Source: Fibrobacteria bacterium (GTDB lineage: Bacteria > Fibrobacterota > Fibrobacteria > UBA11236). Taken from it: a DNA stretch of 64,000 nt. Numbering within the stretch: the first letter of the stretch is position 1; every line of letters begins with the position of its first letter. The notes beneath the pieces are model-generated. The model worked only from the letters and a program-made list of their open reading frames with translations, was not told the DNA's origin and made no database searches. Location: positions 1 through 64,000 of the forward strand of contig JANYDA010000050.1 in NCBI GenBank assembly GCA_025360005.1. Reading direction: 5' to 3'. The translations under genes and the position numbers were made by a program. Below, piece by piece: positions 36,854 to 38,511 of this stretch.

Positions 36854-37084
36854 TCACTTCTTCTTGAACAAGTCCGACAGCGCTCCCAAGTCCCCGTCCC
36901 CGCCTCCGGCGGCCTTCTGGTTCTCTTCCTTGATGCGTTTGAACACTTCTTCGCGATGGATGGAAATTTCCTTGGGAGCATCGATGCCGATTTTGATGTT
37001 CTTCCCGTCCACGTCCATGATGGTAATGCAGATATTGTCGTTGATGCGGATGGATTCGCCCACCTTGCGGGTAAGGATCAGCAT
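36854..37084 (-). CDS. csrA: Carbon storage regulator CsrA
   Basis: A 76-residue RNA-binding protein. [18 protein letters not shown] at the start and [10 protein letters not shown] near the end include the conserved Arg residues that contact GGA motifs. The C-terminal 20 residues (Gly/Lys-rich) extend slightly beyond the usual length. Its ATG overlaps the fliW stop by one base (TGATG), so the two are co-translated. CsrA represses flagellin translation in Bacillus, and the leader upstream of the flagellin gene carries matching sites. Confidence 0.95.
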
Positions 37085-37542
37085 CAGGGGATGATCCGTT
37101 CCCGCAACGAATAAGCGTCGTTCTCGATGATGATTTGCTTGCCCACCTTTTCCCGAATGTTGATGAACAGGGGCCCCATCAGGTTGGCGGTGGATTCCAT
37201 CAGCGGGGTCCGCAGGGTGACGATGACGTAGAGCAGCAGCTCCTTGGGATCCTTGATCTCCAGGGAGGCCAACTCCTCTTTCTTGATTTTAGGCTGGTAG
37301 TCGGGACGGAAGGAAAGCGGGTTGATGATGGCGAAACGGATGGCGTTGCCATCGTCCACGCATTCCATCCAATGGAAAGGCTGGTGCTCCGGCACGGACA
37401 TGATGATGAACTTGCGGGCGTTCTCGAATCCCGGCAACCCCACGGGAAAGTGGATGACTTGATCCTCGGTCCAGGGCAGTCCGCTGGAGGTGATGTGTTG
37501 GGTAGCTTTCATTCCGAAACGGTTTCCTTCCGAGTCATCCAT
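37084..37542 (-). CDS. fliW: Flagellar assembly factor FliW
   Basis: A 152-residue FliW protein: [14 protein letters not shown], a strand-rich middle ([14 protein letters not shown]), and [27 protein letters not shown]. FliW binds CsrA and flagellin, relieving repression when flagellin is low. It has a ribosome site (AAGGGA) and starts 18 bases after the flagellin stop. Gene order flagellin-fliW-csrA matches the regulatory circuit. Confidence 0.95.
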
Positions 37543-37560
37543 TATCCCTTACCGTCCGGA

Positions 37561-38430
37561 TCATTTCAAGAGTTCCAGCACCCGCCCTGGGGCCTGGTTG
37601 GCTTGCGCTAGCATGGATGTGGCGCTTTGGGTGAGGATCTGGTTGCGCGTGAATTCGGTCATTTCCAGGCCAAAGTCGACGTCACGGATGGAGGATTCGG
37701 CCGAGGTGAGGTTGGTGTCCTGGACTTCCAGGTTTTGCGCGGCTTGATCCAGCCGATTGATGACTGCGCCCAGGTCCGAACGGACCGTGCTGACGGTGCG
37801 GATGGCCGAGTCCACGGCGCTGATGGCGGCAAAGGCCCCTTCGCGGCTGGTGATGGACATAAGGCCGGGTGGCAAGCCCAGCGCTCCCAAGGTTAAGGGC
37901 AGGATATTCACCTGCAAGGTGTCGTTGGTACCATGCGTGTTACCCCAGTTGATGCCCGCGCCGATGTGCAGGATGCAGCTGTTTCCGCCCATCGTCCCGA
38001 AAGAGCCGGAAGCGCCATCCAGCAGGGTCATGCCGTTGTATTTGGTGCTCAGGGAAATACGTTGGATTTCCGACATCAGGGATTGGAATTCGTTATTGGT
38101 GAAGGAGCGCTCGGTGGTGCCCATGCTGTCCGTATCGGATTGGATGGCCAGCTCGCGCATGCGCTGCAAGATGTCGGAAACCTGGCCGCAGGCCCCTTCC
38201 GCTATGTTCAGCAAGGCGGAGCCTTCGTTGGTATTGCGCAGGGCCGCGGCCGTGCCGCGCACCTGGAGGCGGATCTTCTCGGACAGGGTAAGGCCGGTCA
38301 CGTCGTCCGAAGACCGGTTGATGCGCATGCCCGTGGACAAACGCTCCAGGGATTTCGCCAGGTTGCCGTTGCTTTCGCTTAGCGAACCGTTAGTGATCAT
38401 AGCCGTGATATTGTGGTTGATTCTGGACAT
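37561..38430 (-). CDS. Flagellin
   Basis: A 289-residue flagellin. The N-terminal D0/D1 region (MSRINHNITAM, LAKSLERLSTGMRINRSSDD) and C-terminal D0/D1 (SSIRDVDFGLEMTEFTRNQILTQSATSMLAQANQ) are clear, with a short variable middle. It forms the filament or is a minor filament protein. The ATG at 38430 has GGAGGG five bases upstream. The leader carries two CsrA-type GGA sites and a sigma-54-type promoter. No other flagellar gene is in the window. Confidence 0.95.
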   Translation of the reverse strand: MSRINHNITAMITNGSLSESNGNLAKSLERLSTGMRINRSSDDVTGLTLSEKIRLQVRGTAAALRNTNEGSALLNIAEGACGQVSDILQRMRELAIQSDTDSMGTTERSFTNNEFQSLMSEIQRISLSTKYNGMTLLDGASGSFGTMGGNSCILHIGAGINWGNTHGTNDTLQVNILPLTLGALGLPPGLMSITSREGAFAAISAVDSAIRTVSTVRSDLGAVINRLDQAAQNLEVQDTNLTSAESSIRDVDFGLEMTEFTRNQILTQSATSMLAQANQAPGRVLELLK

Positions 38431-38432
38431 GC

Positions 38433-38445
38433 GACCCTCCCTGGG
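38433..38445 (-). promoter_or_regulatory. Candidate CsrA site over the flagellin Shine-Dalgarno
   Basis: The minus strand reads CCCAGGGAGGGTC just ahead of the flagellin ATG, overlaying an AGGGA core on the ribosome site. CsrA sites in this position block ribosome binding. Confidence 0.55.
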
Positions 38446-38457
38446 CGGAAACCGGAT

Positions 38458-38470
38458 GCCAATCCCTGGC
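38458..38470 (-). promoter_or_regulatory. Candidate CsrA-binding hairpin in the flagellin leader
   Basis: The minus strand reads GCCAGGGATTGGC: a 4-bp stem (GCCA/TGGC) with GGA in the loop, the classic CsrA target shape. It lies 28-40 bases upstream of the ATG, as the upper site does in the Bacillus hag leader. Confidence 0.6.
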
Positions 38471-38496
38471 GTCCGACCTGAAAAGACCGCAAAAAA

Positions 38497-38511
38497 GCAA
38501 ATGAAGTGCCA
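38497..38511 (-). promoter_or_regulatory. Sigma-54-type -24/-12 promoter of the flagellin operon
   Basis: The minus strand has TGGCAC (38506-38511), five bases, then TTGC (38497-38500), the exact sigma-54 spacing. The implied transcription start is near 38,486, giving a leader of about 55 bases that includes both CsrA-type sites. Confidence 0.7.

Follow-up and report, generated by a model that had tools for sequence, protein, structure and literature searches.

In the Hag-FliW-CsrA homeostasis loop of Bacillus subtilis, CsrA occludes the Shine-Dalgarno sequence in the flagellin leader (PMC6529632, PMC7652899). In Campylobacter jejuni, an RpoN-dependent flaB is found beside a FliA-dependent flaA, the leaders of both are bound by CsrA, and FliW acts as the antagonist (PMC4894983). 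In the 45-nt flaA leader, two stem-loops form with ANGGA in their loops and with compensatory changes, the second lying over the ribosome site (PMC4894983), and residues V51 and N55 of C. jejuni CsrA are needed for FliW binding (PMC7829508). A third known fliW-csrA system likewise has CsrA sites proposed near the flagellin Shine-Dalgarno sequence and places fliW-csrA in a flagellar cluster, although, unlike the locus described here, it has sigma70 and sigma28 promoters and no flagellin is named in its flagellar cluster. CsrA-FliW control thus has precedents, also in combination with sigma54; the first-pass annotation of this DNA had pointed to the different sigma factor, for which flaB is such a precedent. 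What is new is the phylum, the dedicated sigma54 flagellin beside fliW-csrA, and the phylum-wide occurrence of two-hairpin leaders under both promoter types. A literature search returned no paper mentioning both CsrA and FliW for Fibrobacterota.

The locus lies in a 64-kb stretch of DNA (the window) that forms part of a Fibrobacterota MAG (G000; 4.98 Mb, 65 contigs, 98% complete). Named relatives of its flagellin come from MAGs labelled Fibrobacteres or Fibrobacteria bacterium, which places it in this phylum. Pfam matches above cut-off identified flagellin, FliW and CsrA as consecutive genes in that order on the minus strand, as had been claimed. The 289-residue flagellin (37561..38430; PF00669 and PF00700) is a sigma54-type paralogue adjoining the fliW ORF (37084..37542; PF02623), and the stop codon of fliW overlaps the start codon of csrA (36854..37084; 76 aa; PF02599) in the sequence TGATG. 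The interval originally annotated, 37561-38511, thus contains only the leader and flagellin, with fliW and csrA extending down to 36854. This order, adjacent and on the same strand, is kept in nine Fibrobacterota genomes. A search of the window against Rfam gave no family above cut-off.

The proteins themselves are those expected of a CsrA-FliW system. Both csrA and fliW are single-copy genes, the csrA of this locus being the only one in its genome, and of 17 genomes the 12 with flagellin, and only these, contain them. Residues I51 and N55, which compare with the FliW-contacting V51 and N55 of C. jejuni CsrA, are invariant in 11 aligned CsrAs including the focal one, and a C-terminal extension is present in the Fibrobacterota CsrAs. 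These contact residues and this phyletic pattern, together with conserved hairpins showing compensatory changes, the -24/-12 box, rpoN and the leaders of bacilli (all described below), support the core of a CsrA-FliW loop, and we consider it highly likely from the sequence evidence that the genes of this locus form a CsrA-FliW checkpoint for flagellin homeostasis.

Comparison with B. subtilis reveals the same three protein families, overlapping fliW and csrA reading frames and, in the bacilli scanned, flagellin leaders whose two GGA hairpins are spaced from the start codon much as they are here. Nevertheless, flagellin lies upstream of fliW here, whereas fliW-csrA is upstream of flagellin in the bacilli that we retrieved; the focal flagellin carries a sigma54 box, whereas B. 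subtilis hag is sigma-D dependent; and, unlike in B. subtilis, the Fibrobacterota genomes contain several flagellins, the others with sigma28-like promoters. The flaA/flaB pair of C. jejuni is the closer likeness, since it combines sigma54- and sigma28-type flagellins with a two-stem-loop leader. It differs in that flaB is a weak CsrA target (Kd >350 nM), whereas the sigma54 flagellin of Fibrobacterota lies next to fliW-csrA and bears the two hairpins in its own leader.

The predicted sigma54 promoter of the flagellin, TGGCACTTCATTTGC (TGGCAC-TTCAT-TTGC; 38497..38511, minus strand), is an exact match to the -24/-12 motif TGGCAC-N5-TTGC reported by the first-pass annotation and the sole exact match in the window, compared to 0.17 expected by shuffling. 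The pattern TGGCAY-N5-TTGC, with a variable N5, is found with no mismatch in eight of nine orthologous leaders and with one mismatch in the ninth, a comparison that covers three more distant genomes in addition to six leaders from the same genus. By the sigma54 rule (12 nt downstream of the -12 element), transcription would start at 38485..38486. Absence of an RpoN gene had been named as grounds for rejecting the proposal, but rpoN is present in the focal genome on a contig other than that of the window (G000:C11), as is fliA, also on another contig, and the genome encodes 17 strong sigma54-activator domains. Since rpoN was found in all 17 genomes checked, flagellated or not, its presence, though necessary, is uninformative. 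The candidate nevertheless has the GG of the -24 and the GC of the -12 element at the right spacing, is conserved, and lies in a genome with both rpoN and activators.

Further -24/-12 candidates in the focal genome precede a gene for a urea-ABC-transporter-like substrate-binding protein (L173, G000:C18:8415) and flgJ of a flgJ-flgN-flgK-flgL cluster (L176, G000:C14:220957). In addition, two flagellin genes of another genus that are not beside fliW (L013 and L024, in G045 and G057) also carry a -24/-12 box, exact in L024 (TGGCACGCTTCTTGC), indicating that sigma54 flagellins are not limited to the fliW-adjacent type.

Between this promoter and the flagellin start codon are two GGA hairpins on the minus strand. 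The upstream hairpin H1 (38453..38475), CGGA-c-GCCA-[GGGAT]-TGGC-a-TCCG, occupies the same position in orthologs; its 13-nt core, GCCA-GGGAT-TGGC (38470-38458, with the loop GGA at 38465-38463), is the 13-base hairpin noticed previously, here lengthened by CGGA/TCCG across a C.A mismatch. The AGGGA core over the ribosome site, also noticed previously, is present at 38442-38438 and is itself contained in the loop of a second hairpin, H2, GCCC-[AGGGA]-GGGT (38434..38446; loop GGA 38440-38438). Taken alone, the 13-nt hairpin is close to chance level: GGA-loop hairpins with at least 4 Watson-Crick pairs occur in 9-21% of control leaders, which were drawn from the window and the retrieved loci, and in about 25% of shuffles, and a -24/-12 box turns up in 15% of shuffled windows. 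Nevertheless, hairpin and box are both conserved at the same place across genera, which makes it very improbable that a GGA hairpin and a sequence resembling a -24/-12 box came to precede a flagellin gene by coincidence, and we rejected a chance hairpin on these grounds. It is this conservation, not the 13-nt hairpin alone, that makes the hairpin convincing.

Structure prediction, which had been suggested as a check of the leader, gave a mixed answer in that the two-hairpin state is a predicted fold but not the minimum. In the minimum-energy fold of the 55-nt focal leader, the 5' CUUUUC pairs with the Shine-Dalgarno sequence and the upstream GGA is buried (unpaired probability 0.20-0.34), and the two-hairpin state with both GGAs single-stranded, one of them over the Shine-Dalgarno sequence, lies 1.7 kcal/mol higher. 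This fold raises the alternative that the leader acts chiefly through sequestration of its own Shine-Dalgarno sequence (CUUUUC with GGGAGG), leaving CsrA a secondary role. We regard this as quite improbable, since none of the other eight leaders is predicted to fold in this way and, even in the focal leader, the small energy difference from the two-hairpin state is sensitive to the exact 5' end. Binding of CsrA could pay a cost of this size.

Comparison of orthologous leaders, the other check suggested, showed that the GGA hairpin is kept in relatives along with the -24/-12 box. A GGA-loop hairpin with a different stem is found at the same place in all five same-genus orthologs, giving six leaders with the focal one; examples of H1 include CGCCA-AGGAT-TGGCG, AGGGCT-GGGAT-GGCCCT and GGCCGGCC-TGGGAG-GGCCGGTC. 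Three of the six share a common shape, in which an apical stem with 3-4 pairs is separated by a 1x1 mismatch from a basal stem whose sequence differs (CGGA/UCCG in the focal H1). The second GGA, at the Shine-Dalgarno sequence, is present in all six and lies within a small hairpin in most of them, with H2 stems such as GCCC/GGGC in G002 and UCCC/GGGA in G001. The upstream element of G010 has only 3 bp (ACA-AGGA-TGT). MAFFT aligned the nine sigma54 leaders with the hairpins of the three distant genomes out of register, and no counts were taken from that alignment.

The two-hairpin layout is not confined to sigma54 leaders, as many sigma28-type flagellin genes of Fibrobacterota carry it as well. 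Their upstream hairpin (e.g., CCGCAAC-AAGGAA-GTTGCGG) usually ends 20-31 nt before the AUG and their ribosome-site hairpin has the form AAC-ANGGAG-GTT, although some sigma28-type leaders (L017, L018 and L026) lack the upstream hairpin. Both hairpins were found in 30 of 60 flagellin leaders but in only 6 of 363 controls (Fisher p ~2e-23, a value inflated because the leaders are related). GGA-loop hairpins with at least 5 Watson-Crick pairs were found in 32/59 flagellin leaders versus 10/103 controls and 8.0% of shuffles; when the loop was defined more strictly and the controls were extended, the counts became 30/60 versus 12/363. Among 11 aligned leaders, each of the five helix 1 pairs is changed on both sides, whereas helix 2 has no two-sided change; the covariation score for both helices together is 0.557, three times the shuffled mean of 0.176, and 94.3% of cells are paired compared to 14.8-51.1% when slid. 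As these 11 leaders were picked for bearing hairpins, it is the comparison with control leaders that provides an unbiased test.

A covariance model trained without the focal genome ranked flagellin leaders first in twelve whole genomes, and all 16 matches with E<0.01 lie just upstream of flagellin, several of them outside the training set. Weaker matches (E 0.05-1) within a gcvT-like gene (G000:C23) and before a tubulin/FtsZ-like gene (G045:C134) were treated as chance. The model, built from sigma28-type leaders, did not detect the focal sigma54 leader, and its matches in the window (E at least 0.17) were likewise treated as chance, indicating that sigma54 leaders form a separate sequence subtype. 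As a positive control, 24 flagellin leaders from bacilli, spirochaetes and other groups were put through the same scan, and 19 have an upstream hairpin of at least 4 Watson-Crick pairs; those of the bacilli have the same hairpin pair, and their CCACAAGGATGTGG-type sequences lie about 28 nt ahead of the AUG.

These data also bear on whether the hairpins might be general leader elements, serving mRNA stabilisation or ribosome-site presentation, with a loop GGA that reflects only the Shine-Dalgarno sequence and with no part for CsrA. The downstream GGA belongs to the Shine-Dalgarno sequence in any case, and controls quite often have a GGA of this type in a small stem (35/127 with at least 3 Watson-Crick pairs). 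However, the upstream hairpin retains a loop GGA that is distant from the ribosome site even though its stem varies, the loops resemble the CsrA consensus (AAGGAT, ACAAGGATGT), the covariance model is specific to flagellin leaders genome-wide, and CsrA and FliW co-occur with flagellin, all of which renders this explanation unlikely relative to recognition of the hairpins by CsrA.

Additional leader variants were observed in the course of these searches. Among the sigma28-type leaders, L028, L031 and L146 have two upstream GGA hairpins (CCGGG-AGGGAGT-CCCGG and AGCTGC-AAGGAC-GCAGCT) which, with the Shine-Dalgarno site, amount to three candidate CsrA sites. A second, diverged flagellin-like family in the focal genus (L156, L158, L159 and L162; ~38% identical, at least 282 aa, MRIEK start) has CCGTTC...GAACGG hairpins in the leaders of L156, L158 and L159, with GGA in the loop in two species and lost in the focal genome. 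The tandem sigma28-type flagellin genes of the focal genome (L018 at the end of G000:C40 and L028 at the start of G000:C46) lie at contig ends, so that the flagellin array is broken by assembly and the flagellin gene count of this genome is a lower bound.

The description of flagellin, fliW and csrA as an operon is accurate for their adjacency, strand and conserved order, but is complicated by the sequences between flagellin and fliW. A candidate sigma70 promoter, TTGAAA-N17-GATAAT (37541..37569, minus strand; 10/12 matches), overlaps the flagellin stop codon, and its TTGAAA also encodes Leu-Lys. A scan of the focal region alone found one such promoter where 1.0 was expected, which is chance level, so the case rests on conservation: TTGAAA-N17/18-[GC]ATAAT stands at the flagellin stop codon, its hexamers at matching positions, in five of the six genomes of this genus, and the sixth (G001) has a replacement, TTGCCT-N18-GATAAT, further on. 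Among the outgroups, TTGACA-N17-GATATT (G010) and TTGACA-N17-TATACT (JAAZBG) lie between flagellin and fliW, and a terminator-like hairpin with a T-run precedes fliW in G010, where it is followed by the promoter sequence, and in G055. If the candidate promoter is real, fliW starts at 37512 and not at 37542, making the ATG at 37512 the likelier start; in G005 the upstream fliW ATG is out of frame and MDTTQKITSS aligns with the M at 37512.

Transcription of all three genes as one tricistronic mRNA from the sigma54 promoter, whereby they would be made together and CsrA would repress its own operon, would accord with the flagellin-fliW gap of 18 nt in four of six same-genus genomes, with the overlap of fliW and csrA, and with the lack of any terminator-like site between flagellin and fliW on the minus strand in the focal region. 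The conserved or replaced promoter and the outgroup hairpins and promoters argue against it, as does the finding of fliW-csrA with no flagellin beside it in G012, G014, G045 and G057. Because of these intergenic sequences we downgraded the tricistronic arrangement to a possibility that we doubt. The sequences suggest instead that fliW-csrA probably has its own sigma70 promoter and is at least partly transcribed from there, with read-through from flagellin possible in the focal genus.

In the mechanism that we propose for the checkpoint, RpoN would transcribe the fliW-adjacent flagellin paralogue, as its box suggests, to give an mRNA whose ~55-nt leader holds two predicted CsrA sites, one in the upstream GGA-loop hairpin and one in the GGA hairpin that covers the ribosome site. 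A dimer of CsrA would bridge both hairpins and block translation, FliW would lift the block by binding CsrA, and cytoplasmic flagellin would titrate FliW. As the first-pass annotation had stated for the regulation, we infer CsrA binding, repression, FliW antagonism, titration and timing; its central proposal, a CsrA-FliW loop acting on a flagellin leader in another phylum, was supported by every computational test. Since many sigma28-type flagellin genes share the two-hairpin leader, one CsrA would govern both flagellin classes, sigma54 and sigma28. More speculatively, Fibrobacterota might keep an ancient, dedicated sigma54 flagellin beside fliW-csrA as an early "sensor" flagellin which, made with hook-stage genes, fills FliW and frees CsrA, thereby keeping sigma28 flagellin mRNAs silent until export starts. 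The candidate -24/-12 box before flgJ forms part of the background to this rather unlikely idea, as does the grouping of the fliW-adjacent flagellins in a tree, in which a single origin is not rejected (61/87 support, weak overall because two rows are long; seven of the nine group at 99/92).

These results extend the CsrA-FliW flagellin checkpoint, at the strength given above, to Fibrobacterota, a little-studied phylum, and identify the two-hairpin leader as a mark by which flagellin mRNAs can be recognised in distant phyla. The phylum-wide natural leader variants, with sigma54 and sigma28 types in one genome, provide material on how CsrA reads hairpins and their spacing. Finally, the presence of CsrA only where flagellin is found, among the genomes checked, suggests that CsrA is mainly a flagellar regulator in these genomes.
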